DNA of 25,702 nucleotides from a virus, in IMG/VR virus record IMGVR_UViG_3300020470_005538, positions 1 to 25,702 of that record; one strand, 5' to 3'. A program made the position numbers and the translations under genes. Positions within the stretch are counted from its first letter, which is position 1; each line of letters begins with the position of its first letter. The notes under the pieces are model-generated. The model saw only the letters and a list, made by a program, of their open reading frames with translations, was not told the DNA's origin and did no database searches. Shown piece by piece: positions 1,157 to 20,800 of the stretch.

Positions 1157-2885
1157 TAAGGTCAAATTCATAATTAGTTAAATCAAAACGCACATCATTT
1201 CTAGTAAAATCTGGATTCGTGTTATCCCTATCAAGTGGGATCGAAGTCATATCAAATTTACCTATATTGCTATCCCACTTCAAAACACCTGAAGTATCTT
1301 CACCACTAGTACCACCAGTGACAGTTAGGATAACAAGGTTGGACGCAAGCGGAGAATTGGATGCTTGCTGAGGTGCACCAATAGGACCAGTAACGATACA
1401 TCTAAATCGATATCCAGTCATATATGCTTGTGCTACAACTGAATATGTGGTCGCATTTGCACCAGTAATATTTGTCCAAGCAAAGCCACCATCAGTAGAA
1501 ACTTGCCACTGATAGTTCTTTGGACCATCTTCAGGTTCAATTACAGCAATCAAACTAAAGGATTGAGTACCACCATTAGCAATCGTCGCATTAGTCGGCT
1601 GATTGGTAATGATTATACTTGGAGCAGCAGGTGGATCTCCACCACCTCCAGGATCTCCACCACCTGTCTCTTCTCCAATACCTTGATTTGCTGGTATATT
1701 TAAAGTCTCTTTAGAAGATAAACCAAAGATATAAGGAAACTTAGGAGTTAAAAACCGATTAGGTACTACTTCAATGGTACTAGAACCACCCATTCCAGCG
1801 TGAGCAGCACAGTAATAGTAAAGAGTTGCTGGTGCATCTCCTAAAGGAGTGATCTCTACATACGCTCCAGCATCACCAGGTGTACCAACAACAGTAACAC
1901 CATCAGTATATTCCGAACCACCACCGTGTAATCCATCTGAAGCAGTAGAAAACCTTAGTGGATGAGTTGCATTAGTCGCTTCTGATTGATCAAACTTATA
2001 TGTACTTCCCTTAATAAATTTTAAATTAGGAGTTTCTACACCATCAATGTAGAACTTACCATCAGATGTAGTAACAGTATATGTTTTACTCTCAGTTTCA
2101 TCACCCCAAAGGGTTAAAAAGTAAGCAAAAGTACCGTTTGGATACTCAGGAGTATAACAATAGCGACCATTATAAACATCTAAATGCCTCCCAGGTTTGT
2201 CAACGTTGTACTCATAGTCCTCCATTAGTGAACCACGTGGAGGATTTGCTGTTGTATTACCATATGCAGGTCTATTTACAGCAATAGTCTCTTTCATTTG
2301 ATACCCTGTCTCCATCAATACTACAGCAGAATTATTATTCTGAGGAGAATCATATCCATAAGGACCATATACAGGATAACCATCAAATGCAATACCTAAA
2401 ATCTTAGAGTGTCCGTCAGGGTGACGCATATTGTCACCAACATACTGACTTAGACCATAGTAATCATTGTAACCAGCCATTACCTGGTTATTCTTCCAAC
2501 AACTTAAGAAGTCACCATCGTGATAGTGATACTGATTATTCTCATTAGGATGACCACCACAACTATCTTCACCAAAATCAACCATACCAAAATCAGCAGT
2601 CGCTACCCAATGAAATCCTACTGGTGGATTTCCACCATCTCCAGCGGAGGGATTAAAGAGTGCGACACCGTTTGCAGATATACCGACTATACCTAGAGGG
2701 AAACTTCCTCCAGCTTGTGTATTATCACCGCCTCTATATGTAAAAGCGTGGCTAAAATTATACGCAGTTGCTGTATTGGGGTTGTTATCATTAGGAAAAG
2801 TACCTTTAGAAACTGGGGTGGGCATCCCATCCCCAGTAACCGTTAGTATATCAGTGCCTGGATTGTACGAACCGTTAGCTGCCAT
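1152..2885 (-). CDS. YHYH-domain virion protein with inserted cupredoxin-like domain and C-terminal Ig-like domain
   Basis: This is a complete 577-residue protein; ATG at 2885-2883, TAA at 1154-1152. Domains in order: a short beta N-terminus beginning with a TYDPxTG-like half-motif (SYNPGTDILTVT); a YHYH domain (about 41-262) with the diagnostic YHYH at 119-122 and FDGYPVYGPYGY at 167-178; a cupredoxin-like insertion (about 267-375) with candidate type-1 copper ligands H308, C359, H362 and M365; the closing KFPYIFG strand of the YHYH fold (382-388); a Gly/Pro-rich linker (about 400-422); an Ig-like domain (about 423-524) with YQW at 458-460; and a tail with VLKWDS (534-539) and two FDLT motifs. 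The start lies 8 bases after the giant gene stops, with AGGA only 2 bases from ATG, so translational coupling is likely. No signal peptide is seen. YHYH domains have no firmly known function; a role in the phage particle is inferred from context. Confidence 0.9.
   Translation of the reverse strand: MAANGSYNPGTDILTVTGDGMPTPVSKGTFPNDNNPNTATAYNFSHAFTYRGGDNTQAGGSFPLGIVGISANGVALFNPSAGDGGNPPVGFHWVATADFGMVDFGEDSCGGHPNENNQYHYHDGDFLSCWKNNQVMAGYNDYYGLSQYVGDNMRHPDGHSKILGIAFDGYPVYGPYGYDSPQNNNSAVVLMETGYQMKETIAVNRPAYGNTTANPPRGSLMEDYEYNVDKPGRHLDVYNGRYCYTPEYPNGTFAYFLTLWGDETESKTYTVTTSDGKFYIDGVETPNLKFIKGSTYKFDQSEATNATHPLRFSTASDGLHGGGSEYTDGVTVVGTPGDAGAYVEITPLGDAPATLYYYCAAHAGMGGSSTIEVVPNRFLTPKFPYIFGLSSKETLNIPANQGIGEETGGGDPGGGGDPPAAPSIIITNQPTNATIANGGTQSFSLIAVIEPEDGPKNYQWQVSTDGGFAWTNITGANATTYSVVAQAYMTGYRFRCIVTGPIGAPQQASNSPLASNLVILTVTGGTSGEDTSGVLKWDSNIGKFDMTSIPLDRDNTNPDFTRNDVRFDLTNYEFDLT
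1314..1619 (-). other. Ig-like domain (C-terminal part of the 577-residue protein)
   Basis: Residues about 423-524 show the pattern ITNQPTNATIANGGTQSFSL, then NYQWQVSTDG with the core Trp, then TYSV and FRC before a closing VILTV strand. This matches bacterial and phage Ig-like folds common on virion surfaces. It resembles the Ig-like end of the giant protein (YQWQKKD, TWTNIQGA), suggesting shared ancestry. Confidence 0.75.
1620..1691 (-). other. Gly/Pro-rich interdomain linker
   Basis: Residues about 399-422 are almost only Gly, Asp, Pro, Glu and Ala (GGGDPGGGGDPP). They join the YHYH/cupredoxin unit to the Ig-like domain and probably act as a flexible spacer. Confidence 0.7.
1761..2087 (-). 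other. Cupredoxin-like domain with complete type-1 copper ligand set
   Basis: Residues about 267-375 read as a small beta-sandwich: LKFIKGSTYKFDQ, then ATHPLRFS carrying His308, a Gly-rich loop, and YYYCAAHAGMGG carrying Cys359, His362 and Met365. The C-x2-H-x2-M loop has the same spacing as amicyanin (C-x2-H-x2-M), with the first His upstream as in plastocyanin-type proteins. Copper binding is inferred from ligands and order only. Similar HP...YYYC..H.GMGG segments are familiar to me from marine phage proteins. Confidence 0.7.
2100..2765 (-). other. YHYH domain, main part (in the 577-residue protein)
   Basis: This covers residues about 41-262. The YHYH tetrad is encoded at 2531-2520. It is followed by a Cys (C129), the conserved segment GIAFDGYPVYGPYGY, and then DVYNGRYCYTPEYPNGTFAYF near the end. 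The last strand (FPYIFG) is separated from the rest by the cupredoxin-like insertion. The giant protein carries matching segments at its window-edge end, so the fold occurs in both neighbours. Confidence 0.85.
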
Positions 2886-11800: not shown

Positions 11801-14800
11801 ATTCGTAGAAGGAGTATTACCATCAAGAATCTGACAGCTGAAAGTAGATCCAGAGGCATTAAACACCTTCAACCACTTGTCGCTGGCTGGATCTGATGCT
11901 CTTGGATATGCGTGGTTAGTAGCACCACCATCTTGAGCACAATTAAATGTTACTGCACCATCTCTAAACTTAACATAATCACCATTTATCATTCCGTGAG
12001 CAGAAGATGTGGTAACTGTCAATACACCTGTTGTTGGGTTGTAAGTAGTACCAGATGCAGCAGTCATTGGAGTACCTTCGTACTTAATTTCGACTGATGA
12101 ATCGTATGCTTGGTCTTTCTTAGAAGTTAATGAACCAGAAACAGCAGAAACATAAGTGTGTGAGTAAACACCACCACCTCTTACAACTGCTCTAGCGATA
12201 CTGTTTGAAACAGCACTTACGAAGTTGTGAGTTGTAGTGTTAGTGGAAGGTACATTATCAAGAACTTGAACATCAAATGTACTACCAGTTACATTAGAAA
12301 CAGGGATAAACTTATGTGAAACAGGGTCAGTTGCACGAGGATATGAGTGATTAGTTGCATAACTGTCCTCATTACATTGGAAAGTAAATGCATTATTATC
12401 AATCATTACGTGCTCACCGTTCATTAAACCGTGATTAGCAACTGTAATTGTCATAACACCTGTTGTTGGGTTATATGCTGCCAACGTTGGAGTCATCTTA
12501 GTTGGAGCAACCCAAGTATGTGGAGTTACGTTAGTTGAAGGAACTGTTTGTAGAACCTGAACTGTGATTGTAGTATCAGTAGTAGCAGTGATTGGGCAAG
12601 CAGTATCATAGAATGGGTCATTCTGTGTAGCACCACCTTGACCTGATGCACGAGGATATGTGTGCTCAGTAGCGTAGTTATCTTGTCCACACTTGAATGT
12701 TAATGAATTATTAGCAATTCTTACGGAATCTCTACCAGCAGTAAAGTTATGCTGACCAATAGTCATAACCATTAAACCTGTTGCAGGATCATAGGTTACA
12801 AGTGAAGGATCATAAGCAACTGTAGGTGTCTTACCTACGTTACAAGTAAATGTTGTAGCACCAGTTACATCAATCTCTAACCACTTACCAGATACAGGGT
12901 CAGTTGCTCTTGGATAAGGATGGTTAGAAGCATTACCGTCCATAGAACAGGTAAAGGTAATAGCACCATCATTAAACTTAACTTTGTCACCATCCTGAAG
13001 ACCGTGACTAGCTTGTGTTGTAATTGTTAAAACACCAGTCTCAGCGTTATAAGCACCATTACTAATGTCTGATACTGTATAAGTTGTAGGACGTGGATAT
13101 GGGTGATCAGTAGCGTGACTATCTTGAGCACAAGTGAATACTAATCCACCCTCAGATATCTTAAGGTGTGTACCAGCAGTAAGACTGTGATCACCAATGG
13201 TTAGAACCATATCACCAGTAGAAGGGGTGTAAACCGCATCTGTTGGTGTGAAACTTACAGTAGGAGATTCTCCAACCTTAAATGTAAATGTATTTGTAGA
13301 AACTGCTTCAATTCTCATCCAAGAATCAGCTGCAGGATCATCTTGTCTAGGATAAGAGTGCTCAGAAGCGTGTCCATCCATAGAACAAGTCATCACCAAA
13401 CCATCTTTGGCAACCTGAACCATTTCACCAACCTTAAATCCGTGGTTAGCAACAGTAACAGTTAAATGACCATTAACAGGATTGTAAGAAGCATCTGTTG
13501 GAGTTACTTGAGTTACAGTAGATCTTGGATAGGTATGGAATGTAGCATCATCATCTTCCTTACAAGTAAATGTCAAGGAATTAGGTGCTATCTTAAGATG
13601 TGTACCAGTAACTAATCCGTGTACACCAAGAATAAGTTCCATACTTCCCGTTGTTGGGTCGTAGTTAGCTTGAGAAGGTGTATAGTATTTCAGAGGACTC
13701 TTACCAATAGACATATCAAATGTATTTCTAGTTACATTAGAAATTGGTAAGTAACGTCCACTAGCAGGATCAGAAAGTCTTGGATATGTCTTCTTGCTGT
13801 AATGCTCATCCATTGAGCAGGTGAAGGTCATAGAATCGTTCAAAATCTTGATCCTGTCACCATTTCGGAATCCGTGATTAGGAACAGTAACTGTTAGAAC
13901 ACCAGTTGTTGCAGTGAAATCAGCGAATGTAGCAGTATGGTACGTAGATCCAATAGCTTCAATATCAATTGCTTTGTCAACTACTGGGTCAGAAGAACGT
14001 GGATACTTATGAATAGTCTTGTAATTATCCTGAGCACAACGGAATAGTAATTCGTTCTCAAGAATCTTAAGTGTTTGACCAACTCTTAGACTATGTGATC
14101 CAACATCTATAGTTAATAAACCTGTCTCTGGATCGTAAGTAGAATACTTGGCATCAAAATTAACTCTTTCAGTGATTCCAACATTAACTGTTATATCAAG
14201 ACCACTTACATTAGTAACTGGTAGTAATGAATAAGCAGCAGGATCACTAGGACGTGGATAAGTATGCTGAGTCTGATGATCATCTTGATCACAAGTAAAG
14301 ACTAATGAATTTGTATTAATTCTAAGAGTGTCAGCAGTTGTTAATCCGTGACCAGTCTGTAACGTAAGTACCAAGTCACCTGTTGCAGGGTTATATGTTG
14401 CAGCTTGTGGGGTATGAGTAGCACTTCCAGAAGATTGATCAATAGTAATTGTTTCATCATATACTGGATCACCTTCGGTATAACCGTTAGTGGTAATCAA
14501 TTGCTGTCTCATTACTTGAATTGCAAGATCACGTGCTTGCTCAAAGACATACTTAACTTCAGTTGCCTGAGAATTGATATGCTGAATAGCGTTAGCATCA
14601 GTAATATAGAACTCAGTTGCATACCATAGTTTGTTGTTACCACCGTGCTTAAGGTTGAATACAGTTGCTTCTAATACATCAACAACGTCATCAACACAAC
14701 TCTGATAACCATATCCACCAAATCCTAACGATGGGTATTGAGTAATAGCACGACCAACAGCAGTAGTAGCGATAAACCTTATATTATTATGAATTTCATT

Positions 14801-17800
14801 TCCAGCATCATAGTATTTGTTACCAACAGAACCAAGACCACGAGCATTATCGTAATAAGGATCACGCTGCTCATTAGTCATCGTGTCAGGATAGGGATTA
14901 AACCCAAGCTTGTTCTGGATGGCGAGGACCGTCATATCTCTAGCCATCTGCATAGCAAACTTAGTTTCAGCAGGTTGATCAGTAACGTGCTTCAATCCAT
15001 TCTCACTATTCAGATATAATAATGATGCATCATATACAGCAGAGTTAGAACTAAATCTAAGGTCGTGGCATATTGCTTCTAATACATCAACAATGTCATC
15101 TTCACAATGTACCTTTCCACCTTTAACACTGAAGTTATAATGCTTGAATGCAGAGCACTTAACCATAAGGTCAACTGCTTCCTCAGCAATAACTCTCTTA
15201 TTTCTGTCTATCATATCAGCAGCATCTAATGCACGCTGAGAACCTGCATAGATCTGAGTGTCAAATAAGAAGGTAGGTTCAGTTGTTACATCCTTACGAT
15301 ATGCAGCAATATCCGTATACTCGAACTGGAAGAAATCATCAATAGTGTTAGCATTTGTTCCAGTAAGATTAGCAAGGTTTTCGTTACGTGATACAAGAGC
15401 ATTTTGTAATGCTTTCTCCATCAAGAACTTAGAGTAACCAATAGCATCAAGCATTGGAAGGATCTGTTGATCCACTTCAATAATCTTACCAGTAGAATCT
15501 ATGTAATTATCAATAATTGACTGTACATTAGCATTACCACCAGTTAATAAGTCACCAGCAATAGCAGGAATAATATGATCTCTAATATCTCTCTTACATT
15601 TCTCAGTACCAGGTGAACCACCAGGAATAGTTAACTTATCTACTTGTACAAAGTTGATCATAACTTCGTACTGTGCCTCTAACCACTGTACAACCTCATC
15701 AGCAATACATTTACGGTTAAAGTATAGTAAATCAGCACCATCTCTAAATCTGTTGCCTGTAGGTCCAAGAACTAATAGTATACTATCTACAAGATCGCTA
15801 ATGAAACCAGTAATAGTTGAACCAGCAGGTGATGAGAAGTAATTAGGAATACGAACACGTTGTGTATATTCTCCACTTAAATCATCTTGATTAAGAGTAA
15901 TAATCTCGTTGCAAAGCTTACCAACTTCTCTCCAAGCATAAATGGACTGAAGTAATTCATCATTAACGTGTGCTAATTGACCTTGCTGGTTAGCAAGATA
16001 TCCTCTTGCAGCAACAATACTGTTATAATTACCACCATATCTAAGGTCAGCAACAATAGCAGGAATGATATACTCGTAAGTATCCCTCAAGCATAATTGA
16101 GTACCTTGATCTGAAGTACCAGTATCACCAGGTATCACAAAGTCAGGATACTGTGCCTTCATTCTTCCAACTGCTTCTTCAGCAATGAAGAATTTATTCT
16201 TATCGATTATATCTGCACACTCTCTAAAGTCATCACGAGCAATATCAACACACTCGGTCATAATTTCACTACGCCATAACTCTACACCATCAGCAGTACA
16301 GGTAGAAGTTATAGTATCACTATAAGTTGCATAAATTTCACCTTTAATAATAGGAATAGGTGCTTCACCATCAAATCCAAATTTAAGGTTTATATCAGTA
16401 GCATCATATGTTGAACTAGGTGTAAAGCTTGTACTGTACTCAGAAACACCTAACTTAATCATCAAGTTCTCTATATTTCCAGTAAATGCTTGTGCATTAG
16501 AAGCATTAGCACCAATCTTAACTGGCATATTGCCATAGTTGGTTGCATCATTATAATCAACACCTTCCTTAGTACCACCAACAAATAATCTAGTTAAACC
16601 AGAGTTACGTGTTATAGCGATATGAGTCCAAACATTTGCCTGTAAACTAGCAGAAGAAGTGATCCTATCTGTGTTAGCAGTATTCCAACGAACTGTATTA
16701 TTAACAAGAATCAGATATCCTTCAGTTGTAGATGCAGTAGCAGTCCTGAAATCAAGCAACATCTGTGTAGTATTAACAGCAGTTGGTTTAATCCATAGTT
16801 CAATAGTAAAGTCACCAGCAGCACCAGCACCATCACCGAAAGCAACTTTTGAAGTTGATGGGTGTGTTAAATATGCAGTACCATCAAATTCAAGGGATCC
16901 AGTACCAACAGCATAATCTAAGTTGTCTACAGTTACATTAGTATTAACTAGAAGACTATTAGTGATATATTCTCCAGCACTAAAGGTTCCTGTTGGGTTC
17001 TTAGTATAGATCCACTTATTACCAGCATTAGATCCGATAATTTCAGCAGAAGCACCAGAAGTTATACCTTTAACTGTATCACCAAAAACGAAGAATCCAC
17101 CAGAAGACTTATCCTTATATGCCATCTTGATAGACTTAAGTGTCTCAGAATCTTGGAAAGAATAAGGTGGCTCAACTCTTGTTATATTACTTGTTGCCCA
17201 AGGATATGTACCAGGAGTAGCACCAGTAGGATCCTGTAAAGTATCTGTGATTATTGCAAAGAAGTTAGTAATCGCAGAAGTTATATTGACACAGGAGTTA
17301 GTAGCAGGAATAGTATTCAGTGCTGTGCTAGGTATTGTACTTGTATATGCTGCTTCAAATGCTGCTAAAGTTCCAGGAGAAGCAGTAGTACCTAGGGCAT
17401 TAATCACAATATCCATCAGGGTGGTTATTGTTGAAGCAACTGTCTGACAAGCAGGTGATGCACTGTCAGCAGTAATGCCACTATCAGTAACTTGTGTCCA
17501 ACCGTGTGAATTATCTTGCTTGGCGACTGCAATATTTCTCATAATATCGATTGCCATAGTCTTCACTTTGGTATAAGCGTCAACCATAGTATCAATATCA
17601 CCAGTTACAGTACCATATTGTATAGTTCTATGGGTTGCTTCATAAATGTGATCGTTACCACCGTGAGCAGCGTTATATGATAATGCTTCGACAAAATCAA
17701 CAATGTCAGATAAGCAATGAACATCTCCACCAGATACTGTATATCCTGGATTCTGTTGCTTGGCATAATATAATGCTTCGTGAGCAATGTACCACTTGTT

Positions 17801-20800
17801 AGCAAGTAGTAAAGTTCTAGCATCAGCGTGACTGTTATCAGTAGGCTGATAGTCAGCAGTAATTGTTAAATCACGCCATTGTTGGAGAGTTGTATGAGTA
17901 GTATCAATACTTTCCATTCTGATGCACTTAAGAGCAAGATCTCTTGCCTTATTCATTGCATATACTACTTGTGGAACTTCACCATCAACGTGATATACAG
18001 TAGATCCTTGAACGTAAGTATTGGCAATATCATAGACTTCAGAGTTACCATCGTGCTCTAACTGCCAAGCCATCATATAAAGTGCATCAACGATATCATC
18101 GTGACAATCTTTATCGTGATTTAGACCAGGAACTACGAAAGAGGGGTAGAAATCGTGCATTAATCCCACGGCTTCTTCAGCTATGAACAATGCATTCTTT
18201 TGCAGTGTTTCAGCAGCATCACCACGTCTATTATCGTGCTGTCTTCTTAACGAAGAGTTACCGAAGTATAGTTTCTTAAGTCTAAGTTCATCACCAGCAA
18301 CAAAGTCAGTACCAGTTAGATTCTTATAACGAATCTCTTGATTACGTACATTCTCAAAGTCTAGGAAGTCTTGGTTGTTTGCAGTAGTAGTATAAAGTTC
18401 AGTTGGGTTAATAACTGTCTCACCAATGTTATCGAGGATAACGTTAGGGAAGGTAATTGAAGGAACTCTCTGGAATACTAGTGCAAAGAAGGAAGAACTA
18501 GGTGATAGGTCTACCTGATCAATAATCTGATTAGATATATCATCCTGATAAGGTGCAATACTAGTAATTAAAGAACATATCTTAGAACGTGCAGAATATA
18601 TGATATCGTTAAACTTAAGATTAAATTCTCCAGTTTCAAACTCAGCAGTACCAGATGTACGTGAAACAACTAACTCATTAGTGATAACACCATCTTCTAA
18701 GTTATTTTCTTCAATTATAGCGAATCTACCTTGTAAATTAGTAATTCTTTCACCTTGCTCGTAGATAGTCTTAGAAGTAAGTCCATTTACAGCAGAAAGT
18801 ATAGAAGCAAATCCAGTAGCACTAGAATTGACTTCTTCATTGATTTGGAAGGTTCCTACTATGTTAATGACATCAATATAGTCAACACCAGAATCAATAA
18901 CAGTTGCAGTTGCTTCAGAGATCAAACCACGAACAGTATTACCCAAAAGTGGGAAAATACCACCAATGGTACTGAATGTCATCCTAGTAATTAACTGTTG
19001 TTGATATACAATCTCACGGAACTTAATCCTAGAAGGTGCTTTAGGTGCTTCAGTAAAGACTACAGAAGGTCCAGAAGTAGAGAAGGCAGTACCTGGTGCC
19101 TGTGCAACACCATTCAGCAAGATAAACATCTGATTATCTGTTGCTGTTATGGATTCACCTTCAACATTTAGAGGGAACTGGGTTTTAATCCCATCAAAGT
19201 CATCAGAGACGTTATCAATCTTCTTAACAATAGAAGTCAGAATTTCCTCTGAGTTAGTCAGTCTCTTCTGTCTAAACAGTACCTCAGTGTTATTGAACTG
19301 AGTATAAATGGGTTGTGCGTTAGCAAAAGAGGTAATTTGATTAATATTAGTGAATGCATTAATATTAACCTCTTTAATAAGGTCAGATATAACTTTTCTT
19401 CCTGAAATATCCTTACCACCAGTAATTGCTAGTTCACCAAACAGGTTGAAACCAACAGGGTGATTTGTTTCTAATACAGGCTTTCTCCAAGTATTAATGG
19501 GTGTTTCAGACTTAATAACGTAAGAGAAGTTCTGATAGAAGTAAGAGTCTTGTATTTTCTGTACAATTTCAGATGGTTTACCAACGTCATCGATAAACTG
19601 ACCAGGAGTATTGGTTAGAGAAGCGATATTCAGAGTACCACGAGCGATTGATAGGTTATCAATCAAACCAGAAGCACGAGAAACTTCACCAGTTACACGC
19701 TCTCCAGCTCTCCAAACACCATCATAGTTCTCAAGTTTAAGGATTCTAGGTCCAATCTGCCAACCTTCGTTAGTAGAAACATAACCAGTAGCAGATGCTA
19801 GTGCTAATGAAGTACCTTGATAAACAAGTTCACCAGCAAGGAATCTTGAAGTTTCAACGATAGCAGTTGCTTTACCACCAAATACCTCGGTGAGTAGTAC
19901 CTGTCTACCTTCACCTTGAGTCAAGAATGTGATATAAGAACCAGATTCAGCATCTAACTTAGTTAAAGAGATACGTAACTGGTCAGATTCAAGTGAATTC
20001 TCATTACCAGCAATAGCATAGTAGACCTGATTCTCAACCAAGCTAGTTAAACCAGCAGAACTTGGTTTTGGTAGAATACCAACGGTAGATCCTAGATCTT
20101 CTGCTCTTAATGTAACTTCAGCACCAGTTGTGATACCGTGTGGGAAGTTAAACTGTAAATAACCTAAGTCAACGTTAACAACGTAGTTAAATTCCGATTT
20201 AAGGGTAACTGTTGGTTCAGAACTGTATCCTGCACCTGGATCCTTAATAATAATCTCAGAAAGACGATTGTTCTTAACTATTGCCTCTGCTGATGCACCA
20301 GATCCACCTCCACCAGTAATTACAACAGCGGGAGTTGAAGTATATCCAGAACCTGGGTCAGTTATCTTGATCTCTGCGAGTAAAGCGGTATTAAACAGCT
20401 GAAGGTTCACAGGGAAAGTTATTTCAGGTCTCAGTGTATAATCGTGTGAGTAACCGAAACCAAACTCATTATTCTTAAGTTTCTTGATCTTACCAATAGA
20501 TTTACCTTGTAAGAACACAGAAGCACCTGATCCTTCATCAGGAATAACAACTTCAAGAACTCCACCAGAACCAGCAAGTAAAGAACCAAGAATACCTGGA
20601 ATTGCATCAATATCGATAGATGCAGTCTTATATCCTTTACCAGCAGAAGTTAGAGTAACATCAGTGATAACTCCAGTGAAATCTCCATCATCAGTAACTG
20701 TAATGTTACAAAGAGCACCTTCACCATCTCCATCAATAGGAACATTATAGTAAACACCATTTACGTACTCAGTACCACCATTAAGGATACGAACCTTCTC

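Follow-up and report, generated by a model that had tools for sequence, protein, structure and literature searches.

The window analysed here, IMGVR_UViG_3300020470_005538, is an entire virus record of 25,702 bases that probably represents a fragment of a genome. Because the record is probably fragmentary, its phage host can only be inferred, and we take the source to be, probably, a marine phage of a cyanobacterium. All features described below lie on the minus strand. The gene of interest (1152-2885) encodes a 577-amino-acid tail or baseplate-region protein composed of a YHYH domain, an inserted domain predicted to be a cupredoxin, an Ig-like domain and a C-terminal tail. Upstream of this gene is a giant ORF (2894-25702) that is open at the window end and whose 7602-amino-acid product is a putative giant baseplate or virion protein. 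The next gene (3-1124), which is cut by the window end, encodes a T4 gp9/10-like baseplate wedge connector (PF07880, 39.9 bits).

The nearest deposited orthologues of the 577-amino-acid protein are carried by the cyanophages S-SZBM1, P-TIM40, S-WAM1 and P-RSM6, where they are flanked, in the same gene order, by a giant protein and by baseplate wedge genes. The giant ORF occupies the position of the S-SZBM1 ‘baseplate wedge initiator’. Searches against PHROGs match virion, baseplate and tail-fibre families to the YHYH region, the insert and the Ig-like segment. The initial annotation had called the product a virion protein, and this assignment is supported by homology, as evident by the baseplate wedge neighbours, the gp9/10 relationship and the PHROG tail and virion families, without proteomics of this particular phage. 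Virion proteomics of the cyanophage S-SM1 is reported to have identified 41 proteins, including the T4-GC969 product, and orthologues of S-SM1 virion proteins are marked there in other cyanophages together with data for S-PM2 and Syn9 (PMC3037559).

The giant ORF also has features of its own. Six helical repeats between positions 14447 and 18262 resemble phycobiliproteins (17858-18262, 17462-17866, 15860-16264, 15380-15784, 14864-15268 and 14447-14851). The best PDB match to a profile of these repeats is a phycoerythrin of the beta type (E 6e-5), and among the best 60 matches listed all are phycobiliproteins or bilin-type relatives; PF00502 scores 39.5 bits, over its cutoff, on a 2000-amino-acid stretch of the ORF. 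In all six repeats, the bilin-binding C-x-R-D motif has an invariant Cys and an invariant Asp, and among 26 aligned repeats from other cyanophages the Cys is kept in 23 and the Asp in 25. Giant proteins with three to nine such repeats were found in eight of the ten phage genomes searched. These repeats may possibly form a phycobiliprotein-derived scaffold in cyanophage virions, or might even bind bilins. A repeat of the C-x3-D-x5-H-x-Y-P-R type, in which a single Cys and a single His lie a constant distance apart, occurs at least 22-25 times in the same ORF, which also has a second, partial YHYH domain at its start (25349-25672; 96.6 bits) that is cut by the window end.

Pfam recognizes the YHYH domain (PF14240) and nothing else in the 577-amino-acid protein. 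This domain (residues 65-258, positions 2112-2693) scores 103.6 bits against a cutoff of 25 and has been predicted to be a Zn-dependent hydrolase (PMC7824862); the insertion lies in the last loop of this domain, whose predicted metal site differs from the copper site considered below. Alignment with the four cyanophage orthologues reveals that the copper-site segment is extra sequence. The YHYH domain extends up to the sequence GTFAYFLTL, which is followed by the insert of ~115 amino acids (residues 264-378, positions 1752-2096) and then by FPYIFG (residues 383-388, positions 1722-1739), the last conserved YHYH segment as defined by alignment with insert-free relatives. In those relatives, FPYIFG is preceded by a linker of 10-14 amino acids. 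The range originally proposed for the domain, 1761-2087 (residues 267-375), lies within it and is slightly too short. The Ig-like domain (residues ~424-522, positions 1320-1616) matches PHROG head and tail families of Ig type, and a stretch of similar sequence closes the giant ORF. Within the insert, the four residues initially annotated as a type-1 copper ligand set are all present at the residue numbers claimed: H308 (1962-1964) as the N-terminal equatorial ligand, C359 (1809-1811) as the thiolate ligand and sole Cys in the domain, H362 (1800-1802) as the second equatorial His, and M365 (1791-1793) as the axial ligand.

We retrieved relatives from IMG/VR with patterns taken from the YHYH-bearing protein rather than from the ligand loop. 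These relatives fall into two classes, one with a short linker (14 distinct sequences) and one with a domain-containing segment of 126-145 amino acids (17 distinct sequences), and His, Cys, His and Met are all kept in each of the 17 distinct inserts. Together with the insert of the window, these represent nine versions at less than 90% identity, with 43% as the lowest pairwise value, and only 28 of the 114 domain columns are invariant among the inserts retrieved in this manner. For a first set of 14 orthologues, identity to the window is 64% in the insert, 82% in the YHYH domain and 85% in the Ig-like domain. By this measure the insert is the fastest-diverging part of the protein, but its ligands are fixed. 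Many YHYH relatives at 58-66% identity are devoid of the copper-site insert. A general rule whereby the two domains regularly co-occur was considered and rejected, as ORFs with a YHYH motif contained just 2 of the 66 distinct viral copies from the first scan; the pairing nevertheless recurs in cyanophage wedge proteins. Computation, working from sequence alone, demonstrates a modular insertion and a domain that is transferable between proteins.

An AlphaFold2 model of the insert, built with 40 homologues, is predicted with high confidence (mean pLDDT 93, pTM 0.86). Its top Foldseek match in the PDB is the cyanobacterial plastocyanin 1baw (E 2.5e-4, TM 0.55-0.59), followed by rusticyanin, three-domain nitrite reductase, a pseudoazurin with an engineered amicyanin loop (2ux6), small laccase and amicyanin. 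The best VIA-align superposition is with the N-terminal domain of the three-domain nitrite reductase 2dv6 (Z 9.2, rmsd 3.6, 99 aligned), and rusticyanin 2cal yields Z 8.7 and rmsd 2.8 with 102 aligned. The TM-scores of the structure matches are moderate (0.55-0.60), and Z values of ~8-9 are likewise moderate by themselves; the weight of this evidence comes from the fact that the listed matches are all cupredoxin domains and from the register of the ligands. The initial annotation had described the sequence as beta-sandwich-like and had suggested superposition on amicyanin or plastocyanin as a check. Both points are borne out by a confident model that superposes on cupredoxins with Foldseek and VIA, and there is very little doubt that the insert is, as modelled, a Greek-key beta-sandwich with the cupredoxin fold. 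A model of residues 1-400 also presents a well-folded insert (blocks mostly 72-94) beside a poor YHYH domain (pLDDT 53 overall). Because the YHYH part is poorly predicted, this longer model is unusable for interdomain geometry. Beta-sandwich proteins of the giant viruses Pithovirus and Marseillevirus (BFVD A0A481Z6J5 and A0A481YVH3) match the insert model more weakly (E ~2e-7).

Searches with single sequences return only weak matches, to plastocyanin (E 0.015) and also to immunoglobulin heavy chains, and therefore profiles and structure are needed. The weakness of these matches is what could be said for a chance likeness to amicyanin in an Ig-like domain, an explanation that the structure, profile and conservation evidence contradict and that we find scarcely credible. 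The window domain reaches 13.3 bits with PF00127, under the curated cutoff of 21.2, and is not matched by the amicyanin family TIGR02657 of NCBIfam (cutoff 110.2 bits). PF00127 matches 8 of 40 relatives, with a best E of 0.0075. Because the PF00127 cutoff is missed, the window domain is considered a separate branch near this family rather than a member of it.

A profile of the window family is unconvincing when aligned by hhalign with plastocyanins alone (prob 31), and thus a bridge through short marine cupredoxins is needed. Short marine proteins from Prochlorococcus (L198) and Flavobacteriaceae (L196) share the pattern HPFYIKT...YYxCxxHx(2-4)M, and both pass the PF00127 cutoff of 21.2 bits (29.8 and 27.5 bits, respectively). 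A copy in a P-SSM2 tail fibre (L193), which groups with L196 and L198, just misses this cutoff at 20.3 bits and scores 20.4 bits with TIGR02657 (cutoff 110.2). When aligned with these three sequences, the window-family profile yields prob 97.3 and E 2.3e-11 with the ligands in register. Against the PDB, the profile gives two weak matches, one to pseudoazurin through the C/H/M loop and one to the multicopper oxidase 6vox through the His-Pro strand.

Conservation was evaluated for 238 distinct copies, all of which span the site and share 27-69% identity with the window. Of the 115 columns, the four that hold the ligands rank highest in conservation: H308 is retained in 99.2% of copies, C359 in 99.6%, H362 in 99.6% and M365 in 97.5% (with Tyr or Gln in its place in four copies). 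The prior chance that four named columns would occupy the first four ranks is 1.4e-7. Ligand patterns are HCHM in 232 copies, HCHY in three, and HCHQ, DCHL and EGTL (all ligands lost) in one each, such that substitutions of one ligand alone affect almost exclusively the axial Met. Free loss of single ligands among homologues had been named at the outset as a result that would refute the copper site, and this pattern is not seen. The axial variants, in which Met is replaced by Gln (stellacyanin-like) or by Tyr, were noted in P-RSM6 (L215, record positions 87712-88077) and at three other loci (L046, L048 and L053).

Conservation is inflated by those copies that were retrieved with patterns containing the ligand loop, and two less biased sets were used for this reason. 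The first comprises the YHYH-retrieved inserts, all intact as described above, and the second is a subset of 33 copies drawn from complete genomes of phages and from loci located through YHYH, with 31 HCHM, one HCHQ and one EGTL. The earlier argument that retention of four ligands is not random is upheld both by the ranking of the columns and by the 17 intact inserts. A disulfide involving the Cys was ruled out, since there is a single Cys in 229 of 236 intact copies. The analysis supports a true cupredoxin domain in which the type-1 copper ligand set is intact; its fold, ligands and constraint are computed and the metal is inferred.

Cupredoxin folds without copper exist, as in the ephrins. 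With this precedent, and with the ligand loop lost in some phage copies, the domain might be viewed as a metal-free adhesin in which His, Cys, His and Met serve packing or hydrogen bonding. However, a lone near-invariant Cys accompanied by two His and a Met is preserved in type-1 order down to 27% identity, and decaying sites lose the loop as a block, which makes this explanation improbable. It is very probable, by inference, that a metal is bound at the site formed by H308, C359, H362 and M365, although there are no metal, absorbance or EPR data and the ligand distances are unmeasured. Copper is the likely physiological metal, again by inference, and Zn(II) could be an alternative occupant.

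Whole-genome searches of 19 phages revealed one to five domain copies in each. Many phage copies are intact at less than 40% identity, such as the domain at the C-terminus of the gp9/10 connectors (HPFRIQSS...YYQCTIHAAM). The Cys-His-Met loop is missing as a block from other copies, for example from the second one in the wedge proteins of S-SSM5, P-SSM7, Syn9, S-H35 and P-SSM4, and ACG-2014d has an intact copy in the equivalent wedge-protein region. The N-terminal His persists after loop loss in a few copies (S-SZBM1, P-RSM6). Loss of the loop as a block points to decay of a functional unit, not to free loss of single residues. Five T4-GC399 wedge proteins (L083, L087, L088, L089 and L200) were observed to combine, in one polypeptide, an intact copy immediately ahead of a YHYH-like region with a ligand-less, decayed copy inside that region.

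These arrangements bear on the possibility that the site is structural only, with Cu or Zn stabilizing the sandwich in a protease-rich, salty sea and with no host contact. Metal staples are known in phage tail fibres, as exemplified by the HxH iron of T4 gp37 (PMC11705849), and ligands that stay fixed while the surface diverges would also be expected of such a site. The T4 gp37 and marine phage HxH sites resemble the present proposal in placing a metal ion on a tail fibre, but the gp37 site holds an octahedral Fe between the HxH motifs of a trimer, and its fold and ligand chemistry are unrelated to those of the copper-site domain. What counts against a purely structural site is that ligand-less copies persist beside intact ones in the same polypeptide in the five phages with block loss named above, which suggests that the sandwich is apparently metal-independent and that intact sites do more. 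We regard a structural role alone as rather unlikely, but less easily dismissed than a metal-free domain.

The domain matched 369 deposited phage records by tblastn, almost all from Synechococcus, Prochlorococcus, Pelagibacter, Methylophilales or marine phages, both myovirus- and podovirus-like. A profile-guided scan of IMG/VR confirmed at least 593 stretches. In phages, the domain is set in gp9/10 connectors, wedge subunits and tail fibres, and the gene equivalent to the gp9/10-like neighbour carries a second, C-terminal copy at two related loci (L001 and L005). In genome assemblies, the domain lies on contigs that are probably from phages, and also in bacterial proteins that bear a lipoprotein signal (e.g. 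SAR86 ...FILAACGGGG). Short lipoproteins with poly-Gly linkers and all four ligands were observed in SAR86 and related bacteria (L115, L126, L132, L144 and others). The open-licence literature searched yielded no description of phage virions with a cupredoxin or a type-1 copper site. Cupredoxins are already known, but a mobile, virion-borne branch is apparently unreported in that literature.

Plastocyanin (PF00127), including host and cyanophage petE, has the same fold and the same His, Cys, His, Met order, and provides the best Foldseek match. However, plastocyanin uses C-x2-H-x4-M and H-N where the window domain has C-x2-H-x2-M and H-P, and is a soluble lumenal carrier rather than part of a virion protein; in phages with the copper-site domain, petE is a separate gene. 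The C-x2-H-x2-M spacing originally noted is correct and is common to amicyanin and 2ux6, which are also structural matches, but sequence identity to these proteins is low (14-20%). The label ‘amicyanin-like’ holds for the loop spacing and fails at H308, which is followed by Pro (H-P-L) and not by Asn as in amicyanin. Asn is usual after the N-terminal ligand His of small cupredoxins, and His-Pro is typical of type-1 sites in multicopper oxidases. The window domain shares HP-[FIL] around this His with the type-1 sites found in multicopper oxidases (6vox) and in three-domain nitrite reductase, but is a single domain without a trinuclear or type-2 site. The short marine cupredoxins L196 and L198 are homologous by profile, but are small stand-alone bacterial proteins rather than virion modules.

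The best explanation overall, which we hold to be probable but not secure, is a genuine cupredoxin domain in a tail-region protein that binds one copper and most likely serves as a metal-centred host-contact module. The apo domain would fold in the cytoplasm and, once folded, would take up one copper ion from lysate or seawater, such that the mature particle would carry bound copper. Close to the particle surface, the Cu-His-His-Cys-Met core would fix the end of the beta-sandwich that bears the loops, with the surrounding surface free to diversify. A host-contact module fits because of the connector, wedge, fibre and surface-lipoprotein settings and the rapid divergence around a fixed core. 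This role is inferred from location and divergence only, and the chances for and against it seem to us evenly balanced.

Nothing in the evidence calls for electron transfer. Nonetheless, a redox-active or copper-delivering site might exchange electrons with, or present copper to, host surface proteins, given that the type-1 set is complete with its axial Met, that light-dependent adsorption has been reported for several marine cyanomyoviruses (PMC2984593), and that a Trojan-horse role has been proposed for iron on the fibres of marine phages in a publication that also reviews the gp37 iron (PMC11705849). However, no redox partner is known in virions, there are no data on potential or exchange, and the domain also occurs in pelagiphages and other non-cyanobacterial marine phages. 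We consider such a site unlikely, and a redox role in general possible but unsupported. A bolder and doubtful conjecture is that the tails of marine phages harbour working blue-copper centres, with several in each set of virion proteins, and that the redox state of the copper or the metal itself is used in host recognition or entry, which would tie infection to light, redox state or the supply of copper at the sea surface.

The recurrence of an intact domain leads us to infer that copper is probably carried on marine phage particles. If copper is bound, the abundant marine phages represented by these deposited records and IMG/VR stretches would be copper-carrying particles, and phages might serve as ligands for the trace copper of the ocean. 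A step of infection might then depend on copper, light or redox conditions, and the host-contact proteins of marine phages would be open to simple metal assays on cultured phages.
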